From Roseithermus sacchariphilus (GTDB taxonomy: Bacteria; Bacteroidota; Rhodothermia; Rhodothermales; MEBIC09517), in NCBI GenBank assembly GCA_003285105.1, contig CP030158.1:2766501-2830500 (forward strand): a DNA stretch of 64,000 nucleotides, in the 5' to 3' direction. The notes below the pieces were generated by a model, which searched no databases, was not told the DNA's origin, and worked only from the letters and a program-made list of their open reading frames with translations. Each line of letters starts with the position of its first letter. Positions within the stretch are counted from its first letter, which is position 1. Positions 18,772-36,203 of the stretch are shown piece by piece. Both the position numbers and the translations under genes were made by a program.

Positions 18772-19848
18772 CTAATACGTCGTGATCAGGCCGACGGCCC
18801 GGCGTGCGCGTTCCATGTAGGGGGCGGCCTGCTCGCGGGCGCGGCGGCCGCCCTCGCGCAGGATGTCCCGCACGTCGTCCGGGTGCCGGGCCAGCTCCCG
18901 CCGGCGCTCTCGGGCCTCGGCGAAGAAGTCCGAGATCATCTCGTAGAGCTCCTTCTTGGCGTGTCCGTAGCCATAGCCGCCGGCCCGGTACTTCGCCGCG
19001 ATCTCCTCGCGCCGCTCCTCCGAGGCGAACAGCTTGATGAGCGCGAAGACGTTGCACCGCTCCGGGTCCTTCGGCGCCTCCAGCGGCGTCGAGTCCGTCA
19101 CGATGCTCATCACCTTCTTCTTCAGCGTCTTGCCCTCGTCGAAGATGCCGATCGTGTTGCCGTAGCTCTTCGACATCTTTCGGCCGTCGATGCCCGGCAC
19201 CACCGCCACGTCGTCCAGGATGTAGGGCTCCGGCATGGGGAAGATGGGGTCGTCGGGCGAGGCGTAGGTCTGGTTGAACCGCTGCGCCGTGTCCCGCGTG
19301 ATCTCGATGTGCTGCTTCTGATCCGCGCCGACCGGGACGAGCGTGCCGCCGTAGATCAGGATGTCCGCTGCCTGGAGGATGGGGTAGTTGAACAGCCCGG
19401 CATTGGGCGAGAGCCCCTGCGCGATCTTGTCCTTGTAGGAAACGCCCTTTTCGAGCTGGGCCACCGGCGTGAGCGTGTAGAAGATCCAGGCGAGCTCGGT
19501 CACTTCCGGCACGTCGCTCTGGACGAACAGCGTCGCCGCGTTCGGGTCGAAGCCGAGCGCCAGGTAGTCCAGCGCCACGTCCAGCGTGTAGCGCTCCAGC
19601 GCGTCGCGGTCGCGCACGGTCGTGAGCGCGTGGTAGTTGACGATGAAGTAGTAGGCTTCGTGCCGGGTGTGGAGCGCGATGTGCTGGCGGATCGCACCGA
19701 AGTAGTTGCCCAGGTGGAGCGTGCCCGAGGGCTGGATGCCGGAGACGACGATGGTCTTCTGCGGCGAGGCCGGGCCGGACGACGGGGCCGTGCCGGACGA
19801 CGGGTCTGCGCCGGGCCGGGGCGTCGGGGCTACATCTACGTCAGCCAT
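18772..19848 (-). CDS. trpS: Tryptophanyl-tRNA synthetase
   Basis: TrpS charges tRNA-Trp. It is a class I synthetase of 358 residues with the HIGH-type motif LHLGN near residue 43 (in SGIQPSGTLHLGNYFGA) and KMSKS near residue 225 (GRKMSKSYGN). The first ~30 residues are a Pro/Ser/Ala-rich low-complexity tail rather than part of the catalytic fold. The gene sits inside the trp cluster between an unknown gene and trpG. Finding trpS next to the biosynthetic genes means that the Trp-charging enzyme could share their Trp-responsive control, but a terminator after trpE intervenes. Confidence 0.95.
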   Translation of the reverse strand: MADVDVAPTPRPGADPSSGTAPSSGPASPQKTIVVSGIQPSGTLHLGNYFGAIRQHIALHTRHEAYYFIVNYHALTTVRDRDALERYTLDVALDYLALGFDPNAATLFVQSDVPEVTELAWIFYTLTPVAQLEKGVSYKDKIAQGLSPNAGLFNYPILQAADILIYGGTLVPVGADQKQHIEITRDTAQRFNQTYASPDDPIFPMPEPYILDDVAVVPGIDGRKMSKSYGNTIGIFDEGKTLKKKVMSIVTDSTPLEAPKDPERCNVFALIKLFASEERREEIAAKYRAGGYGYGHAKKELYEMISDFFAEARERRRELARHPDDVRDILREGGRRAREQAAPYMERARRAVGLITTY

Positions 19849-19906
19849 GGGGAAGGCGGGTCGGAGTGATGGGGACGGCGAGGGTCAGACGGAGGCCGGG
19901 CGGCGG

Positions 19907-20410
19907 TCAGACGGAAGCCGGGCGGCGGCGCTTCCGGGTGATCTCGCGGAGGTAGGCCAGGCGCGCCTCGCTGTTGGCACGCACGTTGGCGAGCACGGCC
20001 TGCGTGCGGATCTGATGCTCGCGCGGCTCCAGGTCGAACTCGGCCGATACCTTTTCCAGGAAGGCCTGCTCCAGGTCGAGCAGGCGGAACAGCATCTCGT
20101 CCTCGTCCTCGCCGGCGCGAAAGGCTTCCGGGTCCAGGTCCGTCCCGCTGTAGGCGACGCCGCCCGCGCTGAAGATGGTTTCGTTGATCTTGCCGACGTC
20201 CACGCGGGCGCGCTTGAGGTGGCGTTCCAGCTCGGCCGCGATCTCCGGCGCGCCGATACGTTGCACGGCGTCGTCGTAATACAGGGTCAGCTCGATCAGC
20301 GCCTTGCTGATCGGGTTGAGGCGCTCGACGGTCTCCTCACGCGAGAGCGACCGCCCGATGCCGCCTTTCTGGAAGACGAGCTTCTTGAGGGGACGAAACG
20401 GGTTTGCCAT
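19907..20410 (-). CDS. Unknown helical protein encoded in the trp cluster
   Basis: The gene encodes 167 residues that I cannot place in a family. The sequence looks almost entirely alpha-helical and highly charged. A basic start (MANPFRPLKKLVFQKGG) precedes a helix with SKALIELTLYYDDAVQRIG, an amphipathic helix with ELERHLKRARVD, an acidic turn (GEDEDEM), a long helix with LLDLEQAFLEKVSAEFDLE, and a basic tail ending REITRKRRRPASV. There is no signal peptide, membrane span or metal motif, although the helix pattern loosely recalls ferritin-like folds. It lies 58 bases before trpS and just after the trpE terminator. The codon usage matches its neighbours and the stop and start spacing is tight, so it is very likely a real gene. 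Confidence 0.7.
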   Translation of the reverse strand: MANPFRPLKKLVFQKGGIGRSLSREETVERLNPISKALIELTLYYDDAVQRIGAPEIAAELERHLKRARVDVGKINETIFSAGGVAYSGTDLDPEAFRAGEDEDEMLFRLLDLEQAFLEKVSAEFDLEPREHQIRTQAVLANVRANSEARLAYLREITRKRRRPASV

Positions 20411-20479: not shown

Positions 20480-21982
20480 TCACAGCAAACCCTGCGAGGC
20501 CACCAGCATGGCCTGACGCAGGGCCTGCGCCTTGTTCACGGTTTCCTGGTACTCGTTGGCCGGGATGCTGTCCGCCACGATGCCGGCCCCGGCCTGGACG
20601 TAGATCCGACGTCCGTGCACCACCATGGTGCGGATGGCAATGCAGGTGTCGAGGTTGCCCGAGAAGTCGACGTAGCCGACGGCGCCGGCATACACGCCGC
20701 GCCGGGTCGGCTCCAGTTCGTCGATGATCTCCATGGCCCGCACCTTCGGCGCGCCGCTGACCGTGCCGGCGGGGAAGCAGGCCGCCAGCACGTCCATCGC
20801 TCCGCGCCGCGTCTCCAGCCGGCCCGACACGGACGAGACGATGTGCATCACGTGCGAGTACCGCTCGATGTAGGCGTACCGGTCCACCTGGACCGAGGCG
20901 AACTGGCAGACGCGCCCCAGGTCGTTGCGGCCGAGGTCGACCAGCATCAGGTGCTCGGCGCGTTCCTTCGGGTCGGCCAGCAGGTCTGCCTCGAGCTGCC
21001 GGTCCTCCTCGGGGGTGACGCCGCGCCGCCGCGTTCCGGCGATGGGCAGCACCTCGGCCCGGCCGTCCTCGACGCGCACCAGCACCTCGGGCGAGGAGCC
21101 GACCAGGGCGAAGTCGTCGAAGTCCAGGTAAAAGAGGTAGGGCGAGGGGTTCACCTGGCGCAGCGCCCGGTACAGGTTGAAGCGGTCGCCCTCGAAAGAC
21201 ATCGAGAAGCGCTGCGAGAGGACGACCTGGAAGATGTCGCCTTCGTAGATGTAGTGCCGGGCGCGCTCGACGGCGGCCTCGAAGGCGTCGCGGTCGACGT
21301 TGGAGGCCATCGTCTCGGCCGAGAGGGTGACCGGCGCGGGGTTGGGGAAGCGGTGGGTGCTCAGCACGTGGGCCAGCGCTTCGAGGCGGCTCCGGGCCTC
21401 GGCGTAGGCCGCCTCCAGGTCCGTCTCCGGGTCGATGAAGGCGCTGGCCATGAGCACCATCTGGTGCTTGACGTGGTCGAAGGCGGCCACGGTATCGTAG
21501 AAGCACCAGACGGCGTCCGGCAGCCCGAGGTCGTCTGGCGGGGCGTCCGGCAGGTGCTCGACGAGGCGGACGGCGTCGTAGCCCAGGTAGCCGACGGCGC
21601 CGCCCGTGAACCGGGGCAGCCCGGGGATGTCGGCCTCGGTGTAGCGGTCGAGCAGGTGCTGCATCACCGCAAAGACGTCCCCCTCCGGGATCGGTCCATC
21701 CAGCGGGTGGGCGCCGGTGTCTTCGATCTCGACCCGGCGGCCGCGGGCCCGTACGATGCGATACGGCCGGGTTCCCAGGAAGGAGTAGCGCGCCAGCTTC
21801 TCGCCCCCCTCCACGCTTTCGAGCAGGAAGCCGTAGGTGCCCGGCTCTCGTAGCGTCAGAAAGGCCGAGACCGGCGTCAGCAGGTCCGCGCTGAGCCGCT
21901 GGTAGACCGGCAGGACGAAGCGCGTGTGCCCGCGCCGGCGCTCCTGCTCGACGTGCCGGCAGAAAGCCTCGAAGGTCATCAT
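20480..21982 (-). CDS. trpE: Anthranilate synthase component I
   Basis: TrpE forms anthranilate from chorismate with ammonia from TrpG and is normally feedback-inhibited by Trp. It has 500 residues from the ATG at 21982 (or 21979, since two Met codons are adjacent). The upstream open frame reads through the leader region and is not coding. The N-terminal domain includes LLESVEGGEKLARYSFLG, where the LLES motif is the Trp-binding site. The C-terminal chorismate domain has VVLSQRFSM, PSPYLFYLDF, PIAGTRRRG, LVDLGRNDLGRV, PAGTVSGAPKVRAMEII and YAGAVGYVDFSGNLDTCIAIRTM. It is preceded by a complete Trp attenuator and followed by a strong terminator. Confidence 0.97.
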   Translation of the reverse strand: MMTFEAFCRHVEQERRRGHTRFVLPVYQRLSADLLTPVSAFLTLREPGTYGFLLESVEGGEKLARYSFLGTRPYRIVRARGRRVEIEDTGAHPLDGPIPEGDVFAVMQHLLDRYTEADIPGLPRFTGGAVGYLGYDAVRLVEHLPDAPPDDLGLPDAVWCFYDTVAAFDHVKHQMVLMASAFIDPETDLEAAYAEARSRLEALAHVLSTHRFPNPAPVTLSAETMASNVDRDAFEAAVERARHYIYEGDIFQVVLSQRFSMSFEGDRFNLYRALRQVNPSPYLFYLDFDDFALVGSSPEVLVRVEDGRAEVLPIAGTRRRGVTPEEDRQLEADLLADPKERAEHLMLVDLGRNDLGRVCQFASVQVDRYAYIERYSHVMHIVSSVSGRLETRRGAMDVLAACFPAGTVSGAPKVRAMEIIDELEPTRRGVYAGAVGYVDFSGNLDTCIAIRTMVVHGRRIYVQAGAGIVADSIPANEYQETVNKAQALRQAMLVASQGLL

Positions 21983-21991
21983 AGGGGGAAG

Positions 21992-22032
21992 GATAAATAA
22001 AAAAGCCCGCTGGCTCAGGGGGAGCAGCGGGC
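21992..22032 (-). terminator. Attenuator terminator in the trpE leader
   Basis: On the minus strand GCCCGCTG (22032-22025) pairs perfectly with CAGCGGGC (22012-22005) and is followed by TTTTTTATTTAT (22004-21993), ten bases before trpE. It forms the 3:4 hairpin of the attenuator. Its 5' arm region CTGCTCC (22027-22021) can instead pair with GGAGCAG (22089-22083) inside the leader peptide ORF, which would abolish termination. Confidence 0.9.
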
Positions 22033-22071
22033 CGATCTCGAGACAACGGTGTTCTCTGCGAACACGGGGCA

Positions 22072-22149
22072 CTAACGGCGCACTGCTCCGGGGGAGGACC
22101 ACCACCAGAAGCCGAAAAAATGGGCCGTATGGAGCACCGCGTTGCGCAT
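22072..22149 (-). CDS. trpL: trp operon leader peptide with three consecutive Trp codons
   Basis: A 25-codon ORF on the minus strand runs from ATG at 22149 to TAG at 22072. Residues 11-17 are FFGFWWW, and the three TGG codons occupy 22107-22099. Region 1 (TGCTCC, 22136-22131, codons 5-7) is complementary to region 2 (GGAGCA, 22089-22084), nine bases after the last Trp codon. Region 2 is also complementary to region 3 (22027-22021), the 5' arm of the terminator. A ribosome stalled on the Trp codons would leave 2 free to pair with 3, allowing read-through into trpE. A ribosome at the stop codon would cover 2, allowing termination. All elements of classical ribosome-mediated attenuation are visible. 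Confidence 0.92.
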   Translation of the reverse strand: MRNAVLHTAHFFGFWWWSSPGAVRR

Positions 22150-22154
22150 GGCCG

Positions 22155-22187
22155 GGAAGATAAGGCCGGGGTGCCGCGTGATGCAAA
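22155..22187 (-). promoter_or_regulatory. Candidate promoter of the trp leader
   Basis: On the minus strand TTTG (22187-22184) is followed after 21 bases by TATCTTCC (22162-22155), a fair match to the Bacteroidota TTTG/TAnnTTTG promoter. The -7 box ends only five bases before the trpL ATG, so the transcript would start at or next to the start codon. There is little other space, because the upstream gene's stop codon is at 22215. Confidence 0.5.
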
Positions 22188-22214: not shown

Positions 22215-23315
22215 TCAGGTGGACGTGCCGGGGGGGCGGTGCTCTGCGCCCTCGTCGGCCGGGCCGGCGGCGTCGGGGGGGGTGTCGCCCGGGCCGGGGG
22301 CCGGGGCCAGCGGCGGCGTCGGGCGCGTTTTCTTGTTTCTGGGCTTGCGTGGGCGGGTGCGAATCGGGCGGACCATGTCGAGGTCCGGGTCCGGCTGCGG
22401 CGGCTCTTCCGCGGGCGGGGGCGCGCCGGGGATCGGGCCGAACTGCGGGGGCTCCATCGGGCTGACGCCCACCATCGGGTAGGCCAGTTCGATGCCGCCG
22501 TGCTCCTTGAAGCCGCGCAGAATGCTCATCGTCAGCGCGTGCTCGGTGCCCCGTCGCTTGCGCACGTCACAGAGATACCGCAGCGTCAGGCGAATGCCGT
22601 TCTCCACGATGCGCACGTAGACGAAGGGCGAGAGGATGCTGTAGTGCACCAGAAACTCGCGCGAGAGGTCGCGGATCTCGCGGGCGGCCTGCTGCTCGAC
22701 GATCTGGGCCGCCTGCCGGGCCGGGGCCAGCATGATCTCCTGCGCTGCCTCCCAGTCGCTGCGGAAGGTGACGGTGAGGGCGATCTCGTTCCAGATGAAG
22801 TTGAAGCCGTGGTTGTAGTTCAGCACCGCGTACTGGTAGACCCATCCGTTGGGGATGTGCAGCAGACGGCCGCTGCTCTGATCGGCGTCGACCCACCCGC
22901 CGACTTCCATCAGGATCGTGTGTTGCAGGCGGATGTCGACGACGTCGCCCCGCACGCCGTTGACCTCGATGCGATCTCCGCGCCGGTAGGTGCCGCGAAA
23001 GACGAGGTGCGTCCAGCCGATCAGCCCGAGCAGCACCTCGCGCAGGGCGATGGCGAGGCCGGCGCCCATGATCGTCAGGATCTGCAGCAGATCGCCGCCC
23101 CGGGGGGACCACAGCGCGAGGATGAGGACGAGGGCGACGAGGGCCGTGGTGCGGCTGAGCAGGCGCGAGGCGCGGTACTGCCGCGCCGGGTCGTCGGTGT
23201 AGCGGGGGACCAGGCGGCGCCCGATGCGCACGATGAGGACGGCCACCAGCAGCACCACCAGCGTCAGCAGGATGCGCTGAACGGTCGGGTCGCCCCAGGC
23301 GAACTCGAACGGCAT
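22215..23315 (-). CDS. MscS family mechanosensitive ion channel
   Basis: This inner-membrane channel opens under membrane tension to release solutes. The 366-residue protein has an N-terminal hydrophobic region with spans at about 11-31 and 52-68 and a third pore-lining helix near residues 75-100 (GAGLAIALREVLLGLIGW). The cytoplasmic MscS beta domain follows, with YRRGDRIEVNGVRGDVVDI near residues 112-130 and IPNGWVYQYAVLNY. It ends in a ~75-residue proline-rich, charged tail (about 290-366) that is not part of the fold. The ATG at 23315 was chosen because upstream codons lack hydrophobicity. Its 3' end lies just before the trp promoter. Confidence 0.88.
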   Translation of the reverse strand: MPFEFAWGDPTVQRILLTLVVLLVAVLIVRIGRRLVPRYTDDPARQYRASRLLSRTTALVALVLILALWSPRGGDLLQILTIMGAGLAIALREVLLGLIGWTHLVFRGTYRRGDRIEVNGVRGDVVDIRLQHTILMEVGGWVDADQSSGRLLHIPNGWVYQYAVLNYNHGFNFIWNEIALTVTFRSDWEAAQEIMLAPARQAAQIVEQQAAREIRDLSREFLVHYSILSPFVYVRIVENGIRLTLRYLCDVRKRRGTEHALTMSILRGFKEHGGIELAYPMVGVSPMEPPQFGPIPGAPPPAEEPPQPDPDLDMVRPIRTRPRKPRNKKTRPTPPLAPAPGPGDTPPDAAGPADEGAEHRPPGTST

Positions 23316-34102: not shown

Positions 34103-34175
34103 GCTGGCGTAGCTCAACTGGTAGAGCAGCTCACTTGTAATGAGCAGGTTGGGGGTTCAAGTCCCTTCGCCAGCT
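34103..34175 (+). tRNA. tRNA-Thr (anticodon TGT)
   Basis: A complete 73-base cloverleaf has acceptor GCTGGCG (34103-34109) paired with CGCCAGC (34168-34174) and the anticodon TGT at 34136-34138 in a CTTGTAA loop. The T-loop is GTTCAAGTC. No encoded CCA is present. It is the first gene after the strong promoter. Confidence 0.95.
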
Positions 34176-34245
34176 CTTCATTTGAAATTCGAGGGGTTTC
34201 GGGCACCATGATGCCCCTGTACTTTTTATAATGGCACCCCCTGAC

Positions 34246-34327
34246 GGGCAGGTACCGAAGCGGTCAACCGGGCCAGACTGTAAATCTGGTGGCTTAGCCT
34301 TCGGAGGTTCGAATCCTCCCCTGCCCA
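34246..34327 (+). tRNA. tRNA-Tyr (anticodon GTA)
   Basis: A class II tRNA of 82 bases with a long variable arm. Acceptor GGGCAGG (34246-34252) pairs with CCTGCCC (34320-34326), the anticodon GTA is at 34280-34282, and the T-loop is GGTTCGAATCC. CCA is not encoded (next bases CGA). Its wobble G is a substrate for queuosine modification begun by QueA upstream. Confidence 0.95.
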
Positions 34328-34397
34328 CGATGCATCGGACGGGATGGGTGGCGGGCGCAAGCCCGGCTCGCCCTTCGTCTCGGCCCGCACGCGCCCG

Positions 34398-34473
34398 GCG
34401 GGAGTAGCTCAGATGGTAGAGCATCAGCCTTCCAAGCTGAGGGTCGCGGGTTCGAATCCCGTCTCCCGCTCCA
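34398..34473 (+). tRNA. tRNA-Gly (anticodon TCC), CCA encoded
   Basis: Acceptor GCGGGAG (34398-34404) pairs with CTCCCGC (34463-34469); the discriminator is T at 34470 and CCA is encoded at 34471-34473. The anticodon stem CAGCC/GGCTG-like region holds TCC in a CTTCCAA loop. The T-loop is GGTTCGAATCC. Confidence 0.94.
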
Positions 34474-34509
34474 GACATTAGCAGACCTGCGGAACGGGGT
34501 GGGCGCGCC

Positions 34510-34545
34510 GGGTGTCCCGACGGGTGTCCCGACGGGTGTCCCGAT
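34510..34545. repeat. Three 12-bp tandem repeats between tRNA-Gly and tRNA-Thr
   Basis: GGGTGTCCCGAC is repeated three times (34510-34521, 34522-34533 and 34534-34545, the last ending in T). The core GTGTCCCGAC reappears as the left arm of the terminator at 34648, which suggests derivation from that hairpin or a shared spacer function in tRNA processing. Confidence 0.85.
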
Positions 34546-34568
34546 GCGGGTGATGCAGGCAGTGACCC

Positions 34569-34640
<72 letters not shown>

Positions 34641-34647
34641 CCGCAGG

Positions 34648-36067: not shown

Positions 36068-36140
<73 letters not shown>

Positions 36141-36203
36141 CCGAGAAATCGACGTCTTGCGAGGCGTCCCGTTCTCCTGCGAGAAACGCACCGGTGGTCC
36201 GGA

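Follow-up and report, generated by a model that had tools for sequence, protein, structure and literature searches.

A predicted tryptophan attenuator upstream of trpE in Roseithermus sacchariphilus and other Rhodothermales

Results

We analyzed the trpE locus of Roseithermus sacchariphilus within a 64,000-nucleotide stretch of its genome, referred to here as the window. trpE (20480-21982, minus strand; Pfam PF00425 and PF04715) codes for anthranilate synthase component I and is the gene expected to be controlled; TrpE is 72-74% identical to its nearest relatives, and judged by its best named relatives the organism is a member of Rhodothermales. The minus strand from 22187 to 21993 was read by inspection and with a script. 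It contains, in order, a promoter-like TTG/TATCTT pair, a leader open reading frame (ORF), a region complementary to the 5' arm of a hairpin, the hairpin itself and a U-run. The TTG (22184-22186) is a -33-type promoter element within TTTGCATCAC (22187-22178), and its position is kept across leaders. The -7-type element TATCTTCC (22155-22162) resembles the Bacteroidota motif TAnnTTTG. Its end is separated from the leader ATG by 5 nt, and the box predicts a transcription start at about 22149-22152.

The leader ORF (22072-22149, minus strand, as are all elements of the leader) has 25 codons, encodes MRNAVLHTAHFFGFWWWSSPGAVRR and stops at a UAG codon (22074-22072). Its putative regulatory run of three Trp codons, TGGTGGTGG, occupies 22099-22107. 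Region 1 (GGTGCTCC, 22131-22138) can pair with region 2 (GGAGCAGTGCGCCG, 22076-22089), which forms the end of the ORF immediately 5' of the stop codon; ACGGC at 22128-22124, near region 1, is a second possible partner of GCCGT. Region 3 (CGGCCCGCTGCTCC, 22021-22034) is the antiterminator partner of region 2, and its 22033-22025 part doubles as the 5' arm of the terminator, whose 3' arm is region 4 (CAGCGGGCT, 22004-22012). The U-run TTTTTTATTTAT (21993-22004) is the predicted premature 3' end. The trpE ATG at 21982 begins 11 nt downstream of it.

An earlier note on this DNA had described the leader ORF at 22149-22072, the TGG run at 22107-22099, TGCTCC at 22136-22131, GGAGCAG at 22089-22083 (nine bases past the last Trp codon), CTGCTCC at 22027-22021 and a terminator stem with a U-run. 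Direct reading and script location found every one of these in place, with the stem arms at 22033-22025 and 22012-22004 and the U-run at 22004-21993. The pairing of regions 2 and 3 (2:3) is also present, and the length of seven given for it was too short: 13 of 14 positions pair (one as G-U) between 22089-22076 and 22034-22021.

We examined the conservation of this arrangement by searching for TrpE in 60 genomes, the window's own and 59 relatives from the same order, and reading 50 trpE upstream regions. Thirty-six of these regions, from 13 families, contain a leader ORF with Trp codons, a GC-rich hairpin and a U-run. The Trp codons are arranged as WW, W.W or WWW, with two spaced Trp codons in one leader. 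The earlier note had proposed looking in relatives for a conserved leader ORF with compensatory changes, and the outcome was positive, with covariation in both the 3:4 and 2:3 pairings at these loci. No leader was seen in the upstream regions of the other 14 loci, where trpE is intact. Five of them belong to genus g15 in family f15, three to f4 (every locus of that family), three to f5, two to f14 and one to f2.

The leader peptides are very diverse (MRHVAYHSAHYFGWWWFSPAAVGRARA, MTTDTLRAWTWWHPASAMGAQSRHA and MKIGIGHMSAQNSWWWHVRNRCNGYML are examples), and the Trp codons, the stop position and the terminator are retained. TGGTGG is the most conserved block in the ORF part of the alignment, and the T run after the hairpin is conserved as well. 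Substitutions number 54, 63 and 79 at the three codon positions, a mild third-position excess that is inadequate alone as proof of translation. Of 69 ATGs picked solely for following a promoter box, 67 share an open frame with the Trp run, compared with 27 of 141 other nearby ATGs. The leaders had been selected for WW or W.W codons, their ATG was sometimes chosen by hand, and loci within one family are not independent. The conserved frame, rather than conservation of the peptide, suggests that the leader is translated.

When 114 genomes of the order were searched with a covariance model built from the alignment, 90 gave a hit at E<=0.01 and about 70 (counted from the table) did so at E<=1e-6; hits weaker than the latter threshold may be plain terminators. 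The sole strong match in the window's own genome is the trpE leader, at 87 bits for a sequence that was in the training set of the model, and the next match scores 24 bits. We inspected the two best of these secondary matches (24 bits and less), and neither contained a convincing Trp leader.

Terminators before the next gene are common, and a gene for a mechanosensitive channel-like (mscS-like) protein lies just upstream on the same strand, ending at 22215. The hairpin could simply be the intrinsic terminator of that gene, and the Trp-rich ORF a chance frame. We consider this explanation exceedingly improbable. A promoter-like element sits between the mscS-like gene and the hairpin, and the leader is conserved also where mscS was not detected upstream. 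The Trp-rich ORF, the promoter spacing and the complementarity between leader end and terminator are conserved over 13 families, and a chance frame is contradicted by the conserved frame together with the 2:3 covariation.

The earlier note had also proposed that the 1:2, 2:3 and 3:4 pairings exclude one another. The window leader folds with a z-score of -3.1, and none of 200 shuffles was as stable. None of 200 shuffles of the leader end gave a 2:3 pairing as strong as its own. The weakest of the three pairings in the window is 1:2, originally described with 6 bp (p 0.025); it reaches significance individually in 12 of 36 leaders. Region 1 aligns poorly, and its weak to moderate support comes from per-leader and family-combined statistics. 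Combining one test across the 13 families by Fisher's method gave p values of 2e-9 for 2:3 and 3e-4 for 1:2. The 2:3 pairing between a leader's own arms has an energy of -22.7 kcal/mol, compared with -18.2 kcal/mol when arms are swapped between families.

Covariation was assessed in an alignment of 32 leaders. In the terminator arms (regions 3 and 4), 94% of cells are paired and double changes occur in 6 of 9 pairs; the stem has 29 double-changed cells, compared with 10 after shuffling, and no slid register is comparable. The antiterminator has 27 double-changed cells, compared with 14 after shuffling, and its covariation score was attained in 1 of 500 shuffles but in none of the slid registers. 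Regions 2 and 3 read GCAGTGGG and CCCACTGC in L017 (f3) and L005 (f11), and TAACGGG and CCCGTTA in L038 (f5). By eye, the antiterminator of f13 takes in sequence 5' of the terminator, pairing GCGGGTCaAGAGTC with GACTCTgGACCCGC in L014, and L014 and L016 differ by a compensated A-T to G-C exchange. The 2:3 and 3:4 arms covary, and the 1:2 pairing holds statistically across families while being weak in single genomes.

We also folded the leaders in states that a translating ribosome would impose. When the ribosome was placed on the Trp codons and the RNA ended before region 4, the 2:3 pairing was part of the minimum-energy fold for 34 of 36 leaders; shuffled sequences gave a mean of 17 and a maximum of 23. 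The corresponding window fold, at -27.5 kcal/mol, contains the antiterminator. With the ribosome at the stop codon and region 2 covered, folding forms the terminator in all 36 leaders. Equilibrium folding of the stalled state displaced the terminator in just 3 of 36 leaders (control mean 0.6), and the terminator is favored even with region 2 free in most leaders, including that of the window. Because the terminator wins at equilibrium in most stalled-state leaders, antitermination must be kinetic. The decision in E. coli trp attenuation is likewise kinetic.

The strong GC-rich stem and U-run are near universal in the leaders and are accompanied by the competing antiterminator pairing. These features argue against control at another level than intrinsic termination in cis, in which the stalled ribosome would affect trpE translation or Rho access, or the peptide or a small RNA would act in trans. 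The short distance from U-run to trpE in the window would suit such a mechanism, and a trans role has been reported for a trp leader peptide, peTrpL of Sinorhizobium meliloti (PMC7298713). The distance from terminator to trpE ranges from 5 to 114 nt among leaders, a poor fit to a mechanism that needs a fixed distance, and we regard control at another level as very unlikely.

Promoter placement is a recurrent feature of these leaders. Nearly all families have a TAnCTT/TAnnTT box a few nt before the leader ATG and a TTG about 20 nt further upstream. When 81 leaders from across the phylum were scored, a good box lay 2-11 nt before the ATG in 71 of them (mean of 6.3 after shuffling). Of those 71 leaders, 66 have a TTG about 17-22 nt before the box. 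The same test upstream of trpE itself was positive in 1 of 36. A scan for sigma-70-type promoters found none in the trp region, as expected given a promoter of the Bacteroidota type. Our assignment of the -7-type element is based on the promoter consensus of Bacteroides fragilis and B. thetaiotaomicron, and in the latter the element is centered seven nt upstream of the start site (PMC7366714). This placement, applied to a box 2-11 nt before the ATG, predicts that the leaders have 5' UTRs of only about 0-5 nt. Lengths under 10 nt are uncommon in B. thetaiotaomicron, accounting for about 3.7% of 5' UTRs (PMC7366714). Judging from the promoter placement, the leader mRNA is probably leaderless or nearly so.

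We compared these leaders to trpE upstream regions outside the order. In families f16, f17 and f18 of the same class and in many other families of the phylum, trpE has a WW or WWW leader upstream, in most cases together with a terminator. None was found at 14 of the 60 out-of-order loci sampled (f19, f22, f25, f32, f38, f39, f41 and one of f21). Clear 2:3 pairing was seen in f16, most of f18 and f27, and the same test detected none in f24. A trp attenuator with a leaderless leader peptide, on which a ribosome could load once the 5' end of the RNA emerges, is likely to be present across much of the phylum, including Rhodothermales.

Two further leaders were noted at other genes. In f9, L207 (G031:C8, about 203-310) is a second Trp leader that ends ARPARWWWHGRRGSGRYIA and has the same promoter placement. 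It precedes a DAHP synthase-like gene, with a trpE-like paralogue in the same contig stretch. In f12, L205 (G039:C6, about 170-325) is a candidate aromatic leader, STPYSGYWFMRSAGRRHSG, with a terminator before a chorismate mutase/prephenate dehydratase-like gene, and may be a Phe/Tyr attenuator. The f24 leaders (L155-L168) are rich in Phe and Tyr besides Trp (NKYFGFTWAWFWF, for example), and L160 gave a sub-threshold match to the Rfam family Phe_leader (31.7 of 55 bits).

The Phe codons that the earlier note saw beside the Trp run are present in the window as FFGF, before the run, and Phe is not conserved as a feature across relatives. Such codons could add a Phe response to the Trp response, since a ribosome stalled on them would cover region 1 too, and Phe or Tyr adjoins the Trp run in several leaders (f1, f3, f7 and f24). 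The excess of Phe and Tyr before the run is mild (21 of 272 residues, compared with 11 of 298 after it, taking one leader per family), and many leaders have none. A mixed aromatic attenuator is therefore improbable, if less so than the alternatives discussed above. His, Thr and Asn are commoner than Phe or Tyr before the Trp run, and the His codons can be read as part of region 1.

Downstream of trpE in the window lie orfX (19907-20410, minus strand), coding for a 167-amino-acid protein with no Pfam match, and trpS (18772-19848, minus strand), whose product matches PF00579 (class I tRNA synthetase, W/Y) and is assigned as tryptophanyl-tRNA synthetase by sequence and context. Most relatives with downstream sequence share the order trpE, orfX, trpS, and at loci long enough to show them trpG and trpD come next. 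L031 (f8) shows no orfX, and L032 (f4) has neither orfX nor trpS. The presence of trpS and the 167-amino-acid protein gene inside the trp cluster (18772-20410), kept in most Rhodothermales examined, is an unusual placement for trpS; the named out-of-order loci mostly proceed from trpE to trpG without it. A candidate attenuator has been described before a trpS gene in Streptomyces avermitilis (PMC1262725). A tRNA-Trp gene (anticodon CCA; 36068-36142, plus strand) lies in the same window, near a small cluster of tRNA genes for Thr, Tyr, Gly and Thr (34103-34642).

If trpS is co-transcribed with trpE, a switch responding to charged tRNA-Trp would control Trp-tRNA synthetase as well. In the window, a strong terminator-like hairpin (12 bp followed by TTTTT; 20465-20436, minus strand) directly follows trpE, and no comparable hairpin was found after trpE in the relatives examined. 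Because this hairpin separates trpE from orfX, control in the window may be confined to trpE.

Discussion

The trpE leader of R. sacchariphilus is, with high probability, a classical four-segment, ribosome-mediated trp transcription attenuator, read from a Bacteroidota-type promoter with an mRNA that starts at or a few bases before the AUG. We infer the transcription start site, the stalling, the termination and the response to Trp from the arrangement of its elements. The signal would most likely be charged tRNA-Trp. When it is ample, a ribosome would pass UGG-UGG-UGG, reach the UAG codon and cover region 2, so that regions 3 and 4 pair and RNA polymerase stops at the U-run, at about 21993-22004. 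When it is scarce, the ribosome would stall on the Trp codons and cover region 1, region 2 would capture region 3 before region 4 is made, and trpE would be transcribed because no terminator forms. If the leader is not translated, the 1:2 pairing would leave 3:4 free and termination would prevail.

We compared the Rhodothermales leaders to known trp leaders. Like the E. coli trp leader (Rfam RF00513), they have a short ORF with consecutive Trp codons before trpE and four segments with alternative 2:3 and 3:4 pairings, a GC-rich terminator and a U-run. The RF00513 cut-off of 41 bits was not reached by the window (15.5 bits) or by the best of eight relatives (23.9 bits). In E. coli, trpL is preceded by a 5' leader that carries a Shine-Dalgarno site, and a Trp repressor is present in addition. 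Unlike at trpL, there is no space here for a ribosome-binding site between the promoter box and the ATG. If confirmed, the leaderless placement may be a variant of the known attenuator type.

The earlier note regarded such leaders as well described in Proteobacteria; they are not confined to that group, given the leaders found here across much of the phylum, the trp attenuators of the Actinobacteria Corynebacterium and Streptomyces (PMC1262725) and the Bacteroidete tryptophan peptide leader RNA of Weinberg et al. 2010 (RF01692, Bacteroid-trp; PMC2864571). Like ours, the actinobacterial attenuators combine two or three UGG codons with a competing conserved triple and a GC-rich terminator followed by a U-run; they differ in belonging to another phylum and having the core gGCC-rGCy-GGCC. 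RF01692 is a Trp leader of the same broad phylum (in the GTDB sense). Unlike it, the Rhodothermales leaders have the arm core GCCCRCTGC/GCAGYGGGC. The RF01692 cut-off of 49 bits was exceeded at two sampled f28 loci and in 0 of 113 genomes of the order, and the window was not listed at E up to 10.

Literature searches on trp attenuation in Rhodothermus, Salinibacter or Flavobacteria found nothing relevant. Attenuators of Bacteroidetes may already be listed in older work of the Gelfand and Lyubetsky groups (2004, 2010; cited in PMC1262725 and PMC4833913), and we therefore make no claim of priority for the phylum. Because the leaders tested fall below the cut-offs of RF00513 and RF01692, yet the predicted mechanism is textbook and RF01692 covers Bacteroidetes leaders, we conclude that the Rhodothermales leaders form an undescribed clade within a known type of switch.

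These results extend a textbook mechanism to a clade outside Rfam, in an order whose genomes gave no match to the described families of trp leaders, and provide a ready regulatory annotation for trpE in Rhodothermales. Attenuation requires a ribosome close behind RNA polymerase. If the leaderless reading is true, translation and transcription would be linked from the first nucleotides of the RNA in bacteria where Shine-Dalgarno sites are mostly lacking, and the constant spacing from promoter to AUG suggests how such bacteria may time this coupling. The trpE leader also offers a tractable system in which to study the coupling of transcription and translation in bacteria other than Proteobacteria.
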